A DNA stretch of 64,000 nucleotides from Streptomyces sp. MRC013 (GTDB lineage Bacteria > Actinomycetota > Actinomycetes > Streptomycetales > Streptomycetaceae): positions 4,650,001 through 4,714,000 of the forward strand of contig NZ_CP094264.1 of assembly GCF_023614235.1 (NCBI RefSeq), given 5' to 3'. The notes beneath the pieces are model-generated. The model ran no database searches. It was not told where the DNA came from and saw only the letters and a list, made by a program, of their open reading frames with translations. The translations under genes and the position numbers were made by a program. Below, one piece after another: positions 42,736 through 48,717 of this stretch (positions are counted from its first letter, which is position 1; every line of letters begins with the position of its first letter).

Positions 42736-43060
42736 ACGTACCTCTCGCACTCGACGGTGGGAGGACCCGGTCGTGCGCCGCGAACCCTCCTGCGGGGCAC
42801 GGGACTTGACCGAGCTCCCTGCCTTCGTACAACGCAGTCGGAATCGTAGGGTCGGGCGGGCCGCGGGCGCGAGCCGCCGCGCGCCGTGCCCGCCGCGGTG
42901 TCCCGGTGCGCCCCTACCCCCGCGCGCGGACCCCATGCCGGGGCGTCGCCCGGTCGCCGTACACGCGGCCCGCGCCGGCCGGGGCGGCCCGCGGGCGCGC
43001 GTCCGCCCGTCCGGGCGCCCTCCGTGCCGAGCACCCCGATGTGACGATTCATGCGGCAGT

Positions 43061-43157
43061 GCGCAATGTTCACCCGTCCGTTCCCGAAGAGCGCAATGAT
43101 CATTCACTCATGCGCAACATCGCTGCATTTCAGAATGCGAAGCTCTCCCCGTAGGCT
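43061..43157 (+). promoter_or_regulatory. Permease promoter with three phased GCGCAA boxes
   Basis: Three similar boxes: GCGCAATGTTCAC (43061), GCGCAATGATCA (43091) and GCGCAACATCG (43112). The CGCAA cores are 30 and 21 bp apart, close to whole helical turns. A candidate promoter follows: TTTCAG (43128-43133), 18-base spacer, TAGGCT (43152-43157). The same layout stands upstream of davA. The rest of the 558-base divergent gap (42736-43293) is plain G+C-rich DNA that should also hold the rsbR promoter, which I could not place. Confidence 0.6.
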
Positions 43158-43293
43158 CGGGGCCCGTACCTGGAGTGGCGGTGTCCGCCGGCTCGGCGGT
43201 TCCCCCTTCCACGGGTTCCCCGTGGGCTTCCTCCCGCCCGCACCGCCGCCGACCCCGCCCCACCCCTACCGCAGCGACGAAGGAGCCCCCGCA

Positions 43294-44766
43294 GTGCTCG
43301 ACCAAGGCGTAGCCCCGCCGGCTACCGGGACCCCCGCCCCGAAGGCCGCCGGAACCTTCGCGTTCTCCGCGCTCGGCCGCCGCAAGCCGGTGGAAGTGCT
43401 GGTCGCAGAGGGTGGGCAGGGTGAGGGCGGCTCGCTCCGCCGCTCGCTGTCCATGTGGCAGCTGACCATGATCAGTATCGGTGCCACGCTCGGCACGGGC
43501 ATCTTCGTCGTCCTGGGCGAGGCCGTCCCCGAGGCCGGCCCGGCCGTCACCCTCGCGTTCGTCTTCGCGGGCCTGACGGCGCTCTTCTCGGCGCTCTCCT
43601 ACGCCGAGCTGGCCGGCACCATCCCCGTCGCGGGCTCCTCCTACTCGTATGCGTACGCAACGATGGGCGAACTCGTCGCCTGGGTGTGCGGCTGGTGCCT
43701 GCTCCTGGAGTACGGCGTGTCCGTCGCCGCCGTGGCGGTCGGCTGGGGCGACTACCTCAACGAGCTCCTCAACGGCACGATCGGCGTCACCCTCCCCGAG
43801 GCGCTCACCGCGCCCCCCGGCGACGGAGGCGTGTTCAACCTGCCCGCGCTGGTCGTCGTCGTCCTCGCGATGCTGTTCCTGCTGGGCGGCGCCAAGGAGT
43901 CCGCCCGCGCCAACGCGATCATGGTCGTGGTGAAGATCGGCGCGCTGGTCCTCTTCTGCGCCATCGGCTTCACGGGCTTCAAGTCCGGCAACTACTCCGA
44001 CTTCATGCCGCTCGGCGTGTCCAGCGTCGGCGCGGCCGGTGCCATCCTCTTCTTCTCGTACATCGGCTTCGACGCCGCCTCCACGGCCGGCGAGGAGGCC
44101 AAGGACCCCAAGCGCGACCTGCCCCGCGCGATCATGCTGTCGCTGGTGGTCGTCACCGCGCTGTACGTCCTCGTCGCGGCCGTCGCCGTGGGCGCCTGGG
44201 ACTGGAAGAAGTTCGAGGGCTCCGAGGCGTCGCTCGCCGCGATCATGAACGATGTCACCGGCCAGAGCTTCTGGGGCACCCTGCTCGCCGCCGGCGCGGT
44301 CGTCTCCATCGCCAGCGTCGTCCTCACCGTGCTCTACGGCCAGACCCGCATCCTCTTCGCGATGTCCCGCGACGGCCTCGTGCCGAAGGTCTTCGCCAAG
44401 GTCGACCCGAAGAGCGGCACGCCCCGCGCCAACACCCTGCTCGTCTCGCTGTTCTGCGGCGTCCTCGCCGCCGCCGTCCCGCTCGGCGAGCTGGTCAACG
44501 CCACCAGCATCGGCACGCTGTTCGCCTTCGCGCTGGTCAACGTCGCCGTCGTGGTGCTGCGCGCCAGGCGCCCGGAGCTGGAGCGCAGCTTCAAGGTGCC
44601 GTTCGGCCCGCTCTTCCCGGCCCTCGGGTTCGTGTGCTGCGCCTACAGCATGTACAGCCTCGACATGATCACCTGGGTGGTGTTCGGTCTCTGGATGGCC
44701 GCCGGCCTCGTGTTCTACTTCCTGTACGGCATGCGCCGCTCCCGCCTGGCCACCGCAGGGAAGTGA
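43294..44766 (+). CDS. APC-superfamily amino acid permease (predicted lysine/cationic amino acid uptake)
   Basis: 490 residues with about 12 membrane helices. The N-terminal cytoplasmic ~60 residues lead into MISIGATLGTGIFVVLGEA, the substrate-binding first helix of APC transporters. LSYAELAGTIPVAGSSYSYAYA and FFSYIGFDAASTAGEEAKDPKR are typical of the cationic amino acid transporter (CAT/YfnA) group. Start GTG 43294 with AGGAG eight bases before it. The neighbouring lysine monooxygenase and amidase suggest that lysine is carried; this is inference from context. Confidence 0.9.
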   Translation: MLDQGVAPPATGTPAPKAAGTFAFSALGRRKPVEVLVAEGGQGEGGSLRRSLSMWQLTMISIGATLGTGIFVVLGEAVPEAGPAVTLAFVFAGLTALFSALSYAELAGTIPVAGSSYSYAYATMGELVAWVCGWCLLLEYGVSVAAVAVGWGDYLNELLNGTIGVTLPEALTAPPGDGGVFNLPALVVVVLAMLFLLGGAKESARANAIMVVVKIGALVLFCAIGFTGFKSGNYSDFMPLGVSSVGAAGAILFFSYIGFDAASTAGEEAKDPKRDLPRAIMLSLVVVTALYVLVAAVAVGAWDWKKFEGSEASLAAIMNDVTGQSFWGTLLAAGAVVSIASVVLTVLYGQTRILFAMSRDGLVPKVFAKVDPKSGTPRANTLLVSLFCGVLAAAVPLGELVNATSIGTLFAFALVNVAVVVLRARRPELERSFKVPFGPLFPALGFVCCAYSMYSLDMITWVVFGLWMAAGLVFYFLYGMRRSRLATAGK

Positions 44767-44776
44767 ACCACCCCCC

Positions 44777-45232
44777 GTGCGACTGAACGACCTCGACGAA
44801 CGCATCGTCCACGCCCTCGCCGAAGACGCCCGCCGCAGCTACGCCGACATCGGCTCGCTGGTCGGGCTGTCCGCTCCGGCCGTGAAGCGGCGCGTGGACC
44901 GGCTCCGGGCCGAGGGCGCCATCACCGGCTTCACCGTCCGGGTGGACCCGGCGGCGCTCGGCTGGGAGACCGAGGGGTTCATCGAGATCTACGCACGGGG
45001 CAACACCTCGCCCGAGACCATCCAGCGCGGTCTCGAGCGCTACCCGGAGATCGCGTCCGCCTCCACCGTGACCGGCGAGGCGGACGCGATCGTCCAGGTC
45101 TTCGCCTCCGACATGCGCCACTTCGAGCGCGTGCTGGAGCGCATCGCGGGCGAGCCGTTCGTGGAGCGCACCAAGTCGGTGCTGGTGCTCTCCCCGCTCC
45201 TGCGGCGGTTCTCCTCGGGCTCGCCCGCCTGA
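44777..45232 (+). CDS. Lrp/AsnC-family transcriptional regulator
   Basis: 151 residues. N-terminal HTH (LNDLDERIVHALAEDARRSY, SLVGLSAPAVKRRVDRLRAEGAI) and C-terminal RAM ligand-binding domain (FTVRVDPAALGWETEGFIEI; TGEADAIVQVFASDM). These proteins form octamers that wrap DNA and respond to amino acids. It starts ten bases after the permease stop, so the two are cotranscribed. It is the obvious candidate to bind the repeated boxes at 43061-43122 and 46001-46066. Confidence 0.92.
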   Translation: MRLNDLDERIVHALAEDARRSYADIGSLVGLSAPAVKRRVDRLRAEGAITGFTVRVDPAALGWETEGFIEIYARGNTSPETIQRGLERYPEIASASTVTGEADAIVQVFASDMRHFERVLERIAGEPFVERTKSVLVLSPLLRRFSSGSPA

Positions 45233-45242
45233 CCGGCGCGGG

Positions 45243-45857
45243 CTACTCGTAGACGGGCCGCCACGGCAGGACGCGGAAGTCCCCGGTCCGCCCGTCGACC
45301 TTCTCGAAGGGCGCCGAGCTGGTGCAGAGCGGCACGTCCCCCTGCTGCGGGTCCTGCGTCACCCAGCTGTAGCCGAGCCGGTCCTGCCGGCCCGCGTCGT
45401 GGACGGTGATCCCGACCCGCCGGCCCCGCGGCCAGCGGTCGCTCTCCTCCACGACGCCGGTCACCACCGCCACCTTGCCGCCCGTGACCAGGCAGTCCAC
45501 CCGGGCCCGCGCCCAGCCGGACGTACCGTCCGGGAAGACGTGCCGGAGCCGGAACGTCCCGGTCGCCGCGGTCGGGTCCATCAGGTCCTCGGCCAGGTGG
45601 GCGTCGAAGGCGAAGTCGATGTCGTGGCCGGGCCGGTACAGCTTCGCCGTCCCGGTGAGTGCCGCAGCCTCCCGCGCGGCGCCCCGCTCCCGCGCGGCAC
45701 CCTCCACGGCGGCCGCGTGCCGCGCGGACGCCTCCGGACGCCCGGCGGCCGCCCCTACCGAATCCGCTTCCGCCGCCCCCGCCGGGCCCGCTCCCACCGC
45801 TCCGGCGGTGAGCAGCAGCACGGCACCGAGCACGGCGATCCTCGTACGACGTTCCAT
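45243..45857 (-). CDS. Secreted protein of unknown function
   Basis: 204 residues. A signal peptide is clear: MERRTRIAVLGAVLLLTAG followed by an AGAA-type cleavage region near residue 32. The mature part begins with an Ala/Arg/Glu-rich helical stretch, then a beta-rich domain (LYRPGHDIDFAFDAHLAED, GTFRLRHVFPDGTSGWARAR). It contains only two Cys (CLVTGG and PLCTSS), which could form a disulfide. No family recognised. Transcribed toward the Lrp gene, with stops ten bases apart. It may just be an insertion in the dav cluster. Confidence 0.75.
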   Translation of the reverse strand: MERRTRIAVLGAVLLLTAGAVGAGPAGAAEADSVGAAAGRPEASARHAAAVEGAARERGAAREAAALTGTAKLYRPGHDIDFAFDAHLAEDLMDPTAATGTFRLRHVFPDGTSGWARARVDCLVTGGKVAVVTGVVEESDRWPRGRRVGITVHDAGRQDRLGYSWVTQDPQQGDVPLCTSSAPFEKVDGRTGDFRVLPWRPVYE

Positions 45858-46000
45858 GGTGGTCGTTCCCTCCCAGCGGAAAACCTCTGACCGGACGCCC
45901 ACCACTCTCCCGGGAGGGCCGCCCCGGCACATCGCGCCGCGGTCGCGTCCCGCCTCCCCCCGCGCGGCGGGGGCGCCCCTCCACCCCGGGGCGGAGGGGC

Positions 46001-46099
46001 GCGCAACGAATCACCGCCGGCCCCGGCGAGCACGCAACGCTTCGACGGTCGGTCCGCAACGGTCACGCCTTGTCCGGGAAGAAGTCCGGACCGTACCTT
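46001..46099 (+). promoter_or_regulatory. davA promoter with three phased GCGCAA-like boxes
   Basis: Boxes GCGCAACGAATCAC (46001), ACGCAACGCTTCG (46032) and CCGCAACGGTCAC (46054), with CGCAA cores 31 and 22 bp apart. A candidate promoter follows: TTGTCC (46070-46075), 18-base spacer, TACCTT (46094-46099). The third core starts exactly 15 bp before the -35, as in the permease promoter. Boxes upstream of the -35 fit activation by the Lrp-type regulator. davA starts at 46145. Confidence 0.6.
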
Positions 46100-46144
46100 T
46101 TTTGCATCCCCCTCCTCCCCTCCGCACCCCGACGAGGTCCGCCC

Positions 46145-46942
46145 ATGCCGCCGCTGCGCACCGCCCTGCTCCAGAGCTCCGGACGGCTCGGCGACGCGGC
46201 CGCCAACCTGAAGTCCCTCGACGAGGCCGCCGCCCGCGCGGCGGCCGGCGGTGCGGGGCTGCTGGTCGCCCCCGAGCTGTTCCTCACCGGGTACGCGATC
46301 GGCGAGGACGTCGCCCGGCTGGCCGAACCCGCCGACGGCCCCTCCGCCCGCGAGGCCGCCGCCATCGCCGCACGCCACGGCCTGGCCGTCGCCTACGGCT
46401 ACCCGGAGCGCGACGGCGACGCGGTGTACAACTCCGCGCTGCTCGTCGGCGCCGACGGCACGCTCCTGGCCAACTACCGCAAGACCCACCTGTACGGCGG
46501 CTTCGAGCAGGAGTGGTTCGTCCCCGGAGACCAGCCGGTCGTCCAGGCCGAGGTCGGCGGCGTCCGGGTCGGCCTGATGATCTGCTACGACGTGGAGTTC
46601 CCGGAGAACGTCCGGGCGCACGCCCTGGCCGGTACGGACCTCCTCCTCGTCCCGACCGCGCTGATGCACCCGGCCGAGATCGTCGCCGAGTCCGTCGTGC
46701 CGGTCCGCGCCTTCGAGAACCAGATGTACATCGCGTACGCCAACCGGACCGGCCCCGAGGGCGAGTTCGAGTTCGTCGGCCTGTCCGCGCTCGCGGGCCC
46801 CGACGGCACCGCCCGGGCCCGGGCCGGCCGCGGCGAGGAGCTGGTCGCCGGCGACGCCGACCCCGAGCTGCTGCGGCGCTCGCGGGACGAGAACCCGTAC
46901 CTCCGGGACCGCCGCCCCGCCCTCTACCAGGGCCTGGTCTGA
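46145..46942 (+). CDS. davA: Carbon-nitrogen hydrolase, probable 5-aminovaleramide amidase DavA
   Basis: 265 residues, nitrilase superfamily. The catalytic triad is visible: Glu44 in VAPELFLTGYAIG, Lys113 in NYRKTHLYG, Cys147 in GLMICYDVEFPEN. Sequence features such as LFLTGYAIG, YGYPERDGDAVYNS and FENQMYIAYANRTG match what I recall of Pseudomonas DavA, which hydrolyses 5-aminovaleramide to 5-aminovalerate and ammonia. The adjacent lysine monooxygenase supplies exactly that amide. davB follows 83 bases later. Confidence 0.85.
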   Translation: MPPLRTALLQSSGRLGDAAANLKSLDEAAARAAAGGAGLLVAPELFLTGYAIGEDVARLAEPADGPSAREAAAIAARHGLAVAYGYPERDGDAVYNSALLVGADGTLLANYRKTHLYGGFEQEWFVPGDQPVVQAEVGGVRVGLMICYDVEFPENVRAHALAGTDLLLVPTALMHPAEIVAESVVPVRAFENQMYIAYANRTGPEGEFEFVGLSALAGPDGTARARAGRGEELVAGDADPELLRRSRDENPYLRDRRPALYQGLV

Positions 46943-47025: not shown

Positions 47026-48717
47026 ATGACGTCCACGGTGCCCACCGCGATCCAGCACACCGACGCCCAGCCGCCGATCACCATGTTCGGTCCGGACTTC
47101 CCGTACGCGTACGACGACTTCCTGGCCCACCCGGCCGGCCTCGGCCAGGTGCCCGCCACCGAGCACGGCACCGAGGTCGCCGTCATCGGCGGCGGCCTGT
47201 CCGGCATCGTCGCCGCGTACGAGCTGATGAAGATGGGCCTCAAGCCCGTCGTGTACGAGGCCGACCGGATCGGCGGCCGGCTGCGCACCGTCGGCTTCGA
47301 GGGGTGCGACCCGGAGCTCAACTGCGAGCTGGGCGCGATGCGCTTCCCGCCGTCCTCCACGGCCCTGCAGCACTACATCGACCTGGTGGGCCTGGAGACC
47401 CGGCCGTTCCCGAACCCGCTCGCCGAGGCGACCCCGTCCACCGTCGTGGACCTCAAGGGCGAGACGCACTACGCGGAGACCGTCGACGACCTGCCGCAGG
47501 TGTACCGGGACGTCGCCGAGGCGTGGAACAGGTGCCTGGAGGAGGGCGCGGACTTCTCCGACATGAACCGCGCCATGCGCGAGCGGGACGTGCCGCGCAT
47601 CCGCGAGATCTGGGCGAAGCTCGTCGAAAAGCTCGACAACCAGACCTTCTACGGCTTCCTGTGCGAGTCCGAGGCGTTCAGGTCGTTCCGCCACCGGGAG
47701 ATCTTCGGCCAGGTCGGCTTCGGCACCGGCGGCTGGGACACCGACTTCCCCAACTCCATCCTGGAGATCCTCCGCGTCGTCTACACCGAGGCGGACGACT
47801 TCCACCGGGGCATCGTCGGCGGCAGCCAGCAGCTTCCGCTGCGGCTGTGGGAGCGCGAGCCGCAGAAGATCGTCCACTGGCCGCTCGGCACCTCGCTGAA
47901 GTCCCTGCACGGCGGCGAGACCAGGCCGGCCGTGACCCGGCTGCACCGCACCGACGGCAACCGGATCACGGTCACCGACGCGAACGGCGACATCCGCACG
48001 TACCGCGCGGCGATCTTCACCGCCCAGTCGTGGATGCTGCTGTCGAAGATCGACTGCGATGAATCGCTCTTCCCGATCGACCACTGGACGGCGATCGAGC
48101 GCACCCACTACATGGAGTCCTCGAAGCTGTTCGTCCCGGTCGACCGGCCGTTCTGGCTGGACAAGGACGAGGAGACGGGTCGGGACGTCATGTCGATGAC
48201 GCTCACCGACCGGATGACCCGCGGCACGTACCTGCTGGACAACGGCCCGGACAAGCCGGCCGTCATCTGCCTCTCCTACACCTGGTGCGACGACAGCCTG
48301 AAGTGGCTGCCGCTGTCCGCGAACGAGCGGATGGAGGTCATGCTGAAGTCGCTCGGCGAGATCTACCCGAAGGTCGACATCCGGAAGCACATCATCGGCA
48401 ACCCGGTGACCGTCTCCTGGGAGAACGAGCCCTACTTCATGGGCGCGTTCAAGGCCAACCTGCCGGGCCACTACCGCTACCAGCGCCGCCTGTACACCCA
48501 CTTCATGCAGGACCGGCTCCCCGAGGACAAGCGCGGCGTCTTCCTCGCCGGCGACGACATCTCATGGACGGCCGGCTGGGCCGAGGGCGCCGTGCAGACC
48601 GCGCTCAACGCCGTGTGGGGCGTCATGCACCACCTGGGCGGCGGGACCGACCCGTCCAACCCGGGCCCGGGCGACGTCTACGACGAGATCGCCCCGGTGG
48701 AGCTGCCGGAGGACTGA
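47026..48717 (+). CDS. davB: Flavin amine oxidase, probable L-lysine 2-monooxygenase DavB
   Basis: 563 residues. FAD-binding dinucleotide fold VAVIGGGLSGIVAAYELMK (Gly55-Gly60) with Glu78 for ribose and RIGGRLR. C-terminal FAD motif GVFLAGDDISWTAGWAEGAV. The overall layout (ITMFGPDFPYAYDDFLAHPAG start, GQVGFGTGGWDTDFPNS, NPGPGDVYDEI end) agrees closely with Pseudomonas L-lysine 2-monooxygenase, not with tryptophan monooxygenase. Reaction: L-lysine plus O2 gives 5-aminovaleramide, CO2 and water. ATG behind AAGGAG. Confidence 0.88.
   Translation: MTSTVPTAIQHTDAQPPITMFGPDFPYAYDDFLAHPAGLGQVPATEHGTEVAVIGGGLSGIVAAYELMKMGLKPVVYEADRIGGRLRTVGFEGCDPELNCELGAMRFPPSSTALQHYIDLVGLETRPFPNPLAEATPSTVVDLKGETHYAETVDDLPQVYRDVAEAWNRCLEEGADFSDMNRAMRERDVPRIREIWAKLVEKLDNQTFYGFLCESEAFRSFRHREIFGQVGFGTGGWDTDFPNSILEILRVVYTEADDFHRGIVGGSQQLPLRLWEREPQKIVHWPLGTSLKSLHGGETRPAVTRLHRTDGNRITVTDANGDIRTYRAAIFTAQSWMLLSKIDCDESLFPIDHWTAIERTHYMESSKLFVPVDRPFWLDKDEETGRDVMSMTLTDRMTRGTYLLDNGPDKPAVICLSYTWCDDSLKWLPLSANERMEVMLKSLGEIYPKVDIRKHIIGNPVTVSWENEPYFMGAFKANLPGHYRYQRRLYTHFMQDRLPEDKRGVFLAGDDISWTAGWAEGAVQTALNAVWGVMHHLGGGTDPSNPGPGDVYDEIAPVELPED

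Follow-up and report, generated by a model that had tools for sequence, protein, structure and literature searches.

Does a regulator of the Lrp/AsnC family, encoded between genes for amino acid uptake and lysine breakdown, govern both? The question is raised by a locus in a 64,000-nucleotide stretch of the Streptomyces sp. MRC013 genome (5.33 Mb; contig NZ_CP094264.1, positions 4,650,001 to 4,714,000 of the forward strand), hereafter called the window, in which the genes for a permease, an Lrp-type regulator (lrp), a small protein on the minus strand, davA and davB follow one another from left to right. The original prediction described the same set of three boxes with a CGCAA core before the permease gene and before davA, and proposed that the regulator acts on both promoters through this conserved triple site. 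The computations reported here directly show boxes that are conserved, fixed in geometry and associated with one Lrp subfamily. Judging from sequence, we put at about 0.8 the probability that the local Lrp (44777-45232) governs both the permease-lrp and the davA-davB transcripts, likely as an activator that answers to lysine.

Boxes of fixed geometry before two transcripts

The predicted layout was found in the window exactly as claimed. Before the permease gene, CGCAA cores start at 43062, 43092 and 43113, with spacings of 30 and 21 bp, and before davA they start at 46002, 46033 and 46055, with spacings of 31 and 22 bp. At both promoters the third core begins 15 bp ahead of a −35-like hexamer, the spacer between the −35 and −10 elements is 18 bp, and the Lrp-family gene does lie between the two transcripts. 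The permease sites, all on the plus strand, occupy 43062-43076 (CGCAATGTTCACCCG), 43092-43106 (CGCAATGATCATTCA) and 43113-43127; the last is held in a conserved register and adjoins the −35-like hexamer TTTCAG (43128-43133), which is followed by the −10-like hexamer TAGGCT (43152-43157). The davA sites, also on the plus strand, occupy 46002-46016 (CGCAACGAATCACCG), 46033-46047 (CGCAACGCTTCGACG) and 46055-46069, and the third adjoins the −35 hexamer TTGTCC (46070-46075), with the −10 hexamer TACCTT at 46094-46099. Both −10 hexamers were assigned from their sequence and from the conserved spacer.

A chance origin of the triple boxes was ruled out by shuffled sequences and by counts of a backwards control. 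The joint pattern CGCAA-N25/26-CGCAA-N16/17-CGCAA matched twice in the window and never in 100 dinucleotide shuffles (0 expected). In the whole genome it again matched only at these two promoters, and the control gave no match. Across 199 Streptomyces genomes there were 241 matches, compared with 18 for the backwards control, and 175 of these genomes carried at least one.

We then asked, as the original prediction had proposed, whether the boxes are found in orthologous promoters. The set comprised 80 Lrp relatives with their surroundings, of which 72 had the permease gene nearby, 58 had davA and 54 had both, and it yielded 71 usable permease promoters and 59 usable davA promoters, the window included. 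To avoid circular reasoning, each promoter was anchored solely on its −35 and −10 elements, and the bases were then read at fixed distances. With 17 further davA promoters from genomes lacking an exact match to the joint pattern, the davA set grew to 76, and all 76 could be anchored. There the third, middle and first cores read CGCAA in 72, 74 and 52 promoters, respectively, and allowing one mismatch raises these counts to 74, 75 and 73. In 75 of the 76 promoters, 18 bp separate the −35 and −10 hexamers. All 71 permease promoters could be anchored too, all three cores had at most one mismatch in every one of them, and the spacer was 18 bp in 65. The 30/21 and 31/22 box sets are thus conserved in relatives, ruling out boxes private to this strain.

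Some loci depart from the common arrangement. In two loci of S. canus (L054 and L080) the permease boxes are normally spaced but lie about 60 bp nearer the start codon (at −136, −106 and −85), leaving a shorter leader. In seven others (L030, L040, L047, L051, L059, L064 and L068) no permease gene was found ahead of lrp, whose upstream 500 bp contained no correctly spaced CGCAA boxes; an apparent scrap of the permease end is kept before lrp in L047 and L064. The davA boxes remain in L030, L051, L059 and L068, the loci of this group in which davA was found.

For the permease, a triple site turned out to be an incomplete description. At a register 21 bp upstream of the first box, a further arm with at most one mismatch was present in 53 of the 71 promoters, in direct orientation in 36 and inverted in 17; at six other registers between the sites, arms occurred in 0 to 4 of 70-71 promoters. 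In the window the fourth Lrp-type site (GTGACGATTCATGCG), assigned by the conservation of this register, is inverted and spans 43041-43055, its minus-strand arm being CGCAT. The full permease operator therefore has a spacing of 21/30/21, and a triple site only was rejected for this promoter. In other respects the original proposal is supported: the boxes are conserved and travel with the Lrp subfamily. Before davA no fourth site was evident (at most 7 of 59 promoters).

The middle permease site also carries an exact right arm, TTGCG, in 26 of the 71 promoters, and there forms a 15-bp dyad of the kind expected of an Lrp dimer. The first davA box (46002-46016) is conserved over its whole 15 bp and is non-palindromic, unlike the other sites; most relatives read CGCAACGAATCGCCG here, and the same string recurs outside the genus.

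The Lrp subfamily, its neighbours and a sister system

The presence of the boxes was next compared with that of the regulator, which we call dav-Lrp. It was found in 191 of the 199 Streptomyces genomes. Among the 24 genomes without an exact match to the joint pattern, davB (at least 80% identity) and the Lrp (at least 77%) occurred together in 18 and were both missing in 6. All 17 testable members of these 18 genomes keep the 31/22 davA set with at most 3 mismatches of 15; L159, which has no davA, was left out. In the class as a whole, 80 of 394 genomes contained the joint pattern. Thirty of the 43 listed pattern places outside Streptomyces were read, and 22 of them adjoin an Lrp 48-63% identical to that of the window. 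Seven of the other eight show no such Lrp, and L142 has a ddaH-like gene and no Lrp within reach. In one actinobacterial family (f17), the permease, davA, davB and a related Lrp occur together, with cores of CGCAA or TGCAA. Five of its 10 testable davA promoters have the 31-bp pair (L403, L404, L406, L408 and L411), one of them, L406, with the full 31/22 set, and L405 has the 22-bp pair. As a separate observation, in genome G010 (L184 and L156) the dav-Lrp gene has one in-frame TGA and the third davA box is degraded to GGCCA, so that regulator and site are possibly decaying there.

The permease gene (43294-44766, plus strand, GTG start) encodes an APC-type amino acid permease matching Pfam AA_permease_2 and TIGR00909, both above cut-off. 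The second gene, lrp (44777-45232, plus strand), follows after 10 bp, and because of this short gap the two genes are probably carried on one transcript. Its product has an AsnC-type helix-turn-helix at the N-terminus (HTH_AsnC-type, PF13404, 58 bits against a cut-off of 27), with the recognition helix GLSAPAVKRRVDRL, and a ligand-binding (RAM) domain at the C-terminus (AsnC_trans_reg, PF01037, 52.1 bits against 25). It scores below the NCBIfam equivalog cut-offs for LysM, AsnC, Lrp and LrpA, with LysM best (62.2 of 180 bits; AsnC, 62 of 227). DavA (46145-46942, plus strand) is a carbon-nitrogen hydrolase (CN_hydrolase, PF00795, 173.5 bits) that reaches the cut-off of no NCBIfam equivalog; it is named a probable 5-aminovaleramidase because of its genomic context, the neighbouring davB. 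DavB (47026-48717, plus strand) resembles flavin-dependent L-lysine oxidases/2-monooxygenases, and its closest solved relative is the L-amino acid oxidase/monooxygenase 3we0, which it matches over nearly the full length (residues 12-560, E 3.6e-241). The 3we0 enzyme, L-AAO/MOG of Pseudomonas sp. AIU 813, is described in the section of the source cited here as acting on L-lysine (PMC5832979), and the two dav enzymes together are described, in an excerpt of another report, as converting lysine to 5-aminovaleramide and then to 5-aminovalerate (PMC5054628). Between lrp and davA, the minus strand (45243-45857) encodes a small, secreted-looking protein without a Pfam or NCBIfam match, a relative of which is present in 25 of the 80 Lrp-locus stretches.

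Lysine genes are not alone in having these boxes. The window genome encodes a sister Lrp (582222-582662 in genome coordinates), 53% identical to dav-Lrp and with an almost identical recognition helix, followed by genes that we take by sequence resemblance to be ddaH (dimethylarginine dimethylaminohydrolase) and rocD (ornithine aminotransferase). Its operator, here called the roc operator, has a spacing of 31/21, and CTTGT follows the last core at the distance seen at davA. It thus uses the same layout (31/21, then 15 bp), with cores that usually read CGCAG. A generic pattern, CGCAR-N16/17-CGCAR-N9/10-TTGT, had exactly two matches in the genome, at the roc operator and at davA, and its control had none. 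We found the roc Lrp in 104 of the 199 Streptomyces genomes and the 31/21 set in 102 of these 104. Outside Streptomyces, the loci that were read have their boxes placed between the Lrp gene and the ddaH-like gene, and some have rocD behind ddaH. In L205 (G000:C1:579500-585500) the first roc box extends into the final codons of roc lrp: CGCAGGAAACCTGCTCTGA ends in what looks like the stop codon, and the same bases thus serve as operator and as coding sequence there.

All but one of the 104 roc promoters could be anchored on promoter elements alone (L220, in G129, could not). In these 103, the middle core read CGCAG in 94, CGCAA in 5, CGCAC in 2 and otherwise in 2. The fifth base at the middle sites of the lysine operators was A in 75 of 76 davA promoters and in 71 of 71 permease promoters. 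Within the same genus, therefore, the lysine operators keep A and the arginine operator mostly has G.

How the regulator could act, and the alternatives

The local Lrp very probably binds these boxes, its dimers recognising 15-bp sites with the half-site CGCAA. Several dimers would sit on phased sites, of which permease-lrp has four (21/30/21) and davA-davB three (31/22), the last in each case beside the −35 element; that a single octamer occupies each operator seems somewhat more plausible than other arrangements. With the transcription start predicted about 7 bp after the −10 hexamer, near 43164 for the permease and 46106 for davA, the centres of the sites fall near −44, −65 to −66 and −95 to −97, and for the permease also at −116. 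Because these values are near multiples of the helical turn, all sites would lie on roughly one face of the DNA. The octamer would wrap the DNA and touch RNA polymerase at the edge of the −35 element, and the presence of lysine or of a compound made from it would activate both transcripts, the effector quite likely being lysine or a near product. The position of lrp behind the permease gene means that activation would also raise the level of the Lrp itself.

Several observations weigh against this proposal. At none of the three davA sites was a second palindromic arm seen (0 of 59 promoters at each), and for this reason these sites are half-sites or asymmetric. Four of the 10 testable davA promoters of family f17 have no correctly spaced exact pair. 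Genome G028 has davB and, 140 bp from the end of a contig, a perfect davA operator, but the Lrp was not found; given that position it is probably off the contig, and we counted G028 as having the dav system. Finally, a site beside the −35 element suits a repressor too.

The last point bears on the direction of control. The same Lrp, bound to the same sites, could block both promoters until lysine relieves the block. Its last site touches the −35 element, and Lrp-type regulators can act in both directions, as the part of the Ah-BarR report used here describes (PMC10201364). Every site found, however, lies upstream of the −35 element and none over the −10 element or the start. The permease −35 is poor (TTTCAG in the window, TTACGG-like in many relatives), as suits an activated promoter, and in the available portion of a study of M. 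tuberculosis the substrate induces an arginine-linked cluster together with its regulator gene (PMC4569260). For these reasons activation is the direction we lean towards, and repression appears rather unlikely.

The boxes might instead be read by a different regulator, such as the sister roc-type Lrp, which has an almost identical helix and an operator of equal geometry; G028, with a davA operator and davB found without an Lrp, would fit this too, even if they stand at a contig end. Set against this, 95 of the 199 genomes lack a roc-type Lrp at the cut-off and only 24 lack the exact CGCAA pattern, so at least 71 genomes have the pattern without the sister protein. Moreover, the middle site of the sister operator reads CGCAG in 94 of 103 promoters, and davB and dav-Lrp are jointly present or absent in all 24 genomes without the exact pattern, which makes a foreign reader improbable. 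Conserved non-coding DNA can in general have other origins, such as a leader RNA or an overlapping code, and need not be a protein operator. A folded leader was tried and rejected: 46000-46145 folds more weakly than its shuffled versions (z = 2.0), of which 196 out of 200 fold equally well or better. The boxes also stand upstream of the −35 element, outside the predicted transcript, and their spacing matches helical turns and is seen again at a third set of genes that is not linked to these two. We regard such an origin as very improbable.

A possible split between paralogues, and known Lrp systems

The dav-Lrp and roc Lrp systems share an operator architecture. Four Streptomyces genomes with a roc Lrp (G120, G121, G186 and G422) had no dav-Lrp or davB that we could find. 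The fifth base of the roc middle site is A in all four of these dav-less genomes and in 2 of 100 genomes with the dav system (G014 and G180; Fisher p 3e-6, uncorrected for kinship). The CGCAA core of G422 was read by eye at a spacing of 20 instead of 21, and its automatic search score (2.5) equals that of the control (2.5); without G422 the Fisher p is 6e-5. The roc Lrps of these four genomes read GLSAPAVKRR in the recognition helix, with Pro as in dav-Lrp, which has AP in 111 of 112 sequences, the remaining one being a partial read. The roc Lrps of the other 100 genomes, G028 not among them, have Thr (94) or Ser (6) at the Pro position. The other columns of the helix, from L36 to R47, are near-invariant, except for the adjoining Ala/Ser site.

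An Lrp relative was present in 94 genomes outside Streptomyces, and 80 of these were read, 21 in a first set and 59 in a second set of 60 regions, whose remaining member was G422, a Streptomyces. Pro predominates at this residue there, but f17 has Ser in 24 of its 33 sequences, one sequence of family f31 also has Ser, and one sequence has Ala. A core was assigned in 42 of the 80 loci, where the triple score was at most 1.5 and better than that of the reversed control. All 38 cores that lie between lrp and ddaH have A; the other four have A in three and T in one, and two of these four are far from the promoter and probably spurious.

These data suggest that the roc system is insulated from the dav system by a change from CGCAA to CGCAG in its operator together with a change from Pro to Thr or Ser in its helix, and that the dav-less species kept the ancestral pair of Pro and CGCAA, a view for which we see about even odds. 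Several cases speak against a strict code: G028 pairs Pro with a CGCAG middle site, Thr is combined with CGCAA in G014, 36 of 103 promoters have CGCAA as their last roc core, and Ser goes with A in f17 and with G in 5 of 6 Streptomyces. Kinship moreover reduces the independent events to a few, and the split rests on these few. An independent-pairs test on a 210-row tree found only 1 to 4 pairs and reached no significance. That the five sequences first labelled as lacking dav (G028 included) form one clade was not rejected on this tree (p 0.69), and on a tree of Lrp plus ddaH the p value was 0.089. For the four dav-less genomes as one clade p was 0.024, with the reservation that this grouping was named after a tree had been seen and that G422 sits on a long branch. 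On the Lrp plus ddaH tree the dav-minus rows occupy a basal position in the Streptomyces roc group. They may therefore simply have kept the ancestral state, and a single switch event is possible. Given the exceptions and the few independent events, the insulation of the paralogues is a hypothesis that fits and not a result.

The locus offers a concrete candidate lysine regulon, comprising putative lysine uptake and the first breakdown steps, with an operator predicted at base resolution. Its newest part may be the proposed separation of the lysine and arginine circuits by one base and one residue. If true, it sets one base of a half-site against one residue of an otherwise nearly invariant helix, and would provide a small natural system for how duplicated regulators avoid each other's DNA. 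Antibiotic and polyamine metabolism draw on the supply of lysine and arginine, which may give a lysine switch practical value.

Operators with several 15-bp sites and wrapped DNA are known for Lrp proteins, and E. coli Lrp is a multi-site octamer that wraps DNA. E. coli Lrp and AsnC (PMC4875751) belong to the same protein family as the window regulator. E. coli Lrp is global and AsnC is local, as the window protein would be by our reading, with strongly conserved sites in fixed registers. Pseudomonas davBA encodes the same pair of enzymes; in the open-access literature searched we found no Lrp-type control of davAB, which is not proof of its absence. On recognition helices and paralogues the same literature yielded one study, of gamma-proteobacteria.

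Box geometry is the same at those loci of the class search in which lrp and a ddaH-like gene are neighbours, and we compared them with a cluster of M. tuberculosis, rocDE-Rv2323c with the adjacent regulator gene Rv2324, where Rv2324 is presumably a member of this Lrp subfamily and Rv2323c presumably ddaH-like. As in the window, genes of amino acid catabolism stand there beside a regulator gene; the differences are that they concern arginine and ornithine and not lysine, and that the portion of the study cited describes no operator. The cluster, which contains ornithine aminotransferase, is upregulated by arginine, and Rv2324 rises 6-fold, according to the section of the study cited (PMC4569260).

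The closest parallel in operator design is Ah-BarR of Acidianus hospitalis and its relatives in the Sulfolobales, which is likewise an Lrp-type regulator encoded beside its target. In the portion of the report on which we draw, Ah-BarR is an octamer that acts on its own gene and an aminotransferase gene, and uses three semipalindromic sites of 15 bp, further sites being predicted, with mixed spacing in one operator (PMC10201364). It differs in being archaeal, in responding to beta-alanine and in having a single divergent intergenic region (PMC10201364). Its authors state there that no earlier Lrp-DNA complex was known to combine two lengths of spacing (PMC10201364). The operators described here are a further and widely conserved case of two spacings: compared with Ah-BarR, mixed spacing occurs at two operons in most of the Streptomyces examined, at the operator of a paralogue, and also in relatives from other actinobacterial families.

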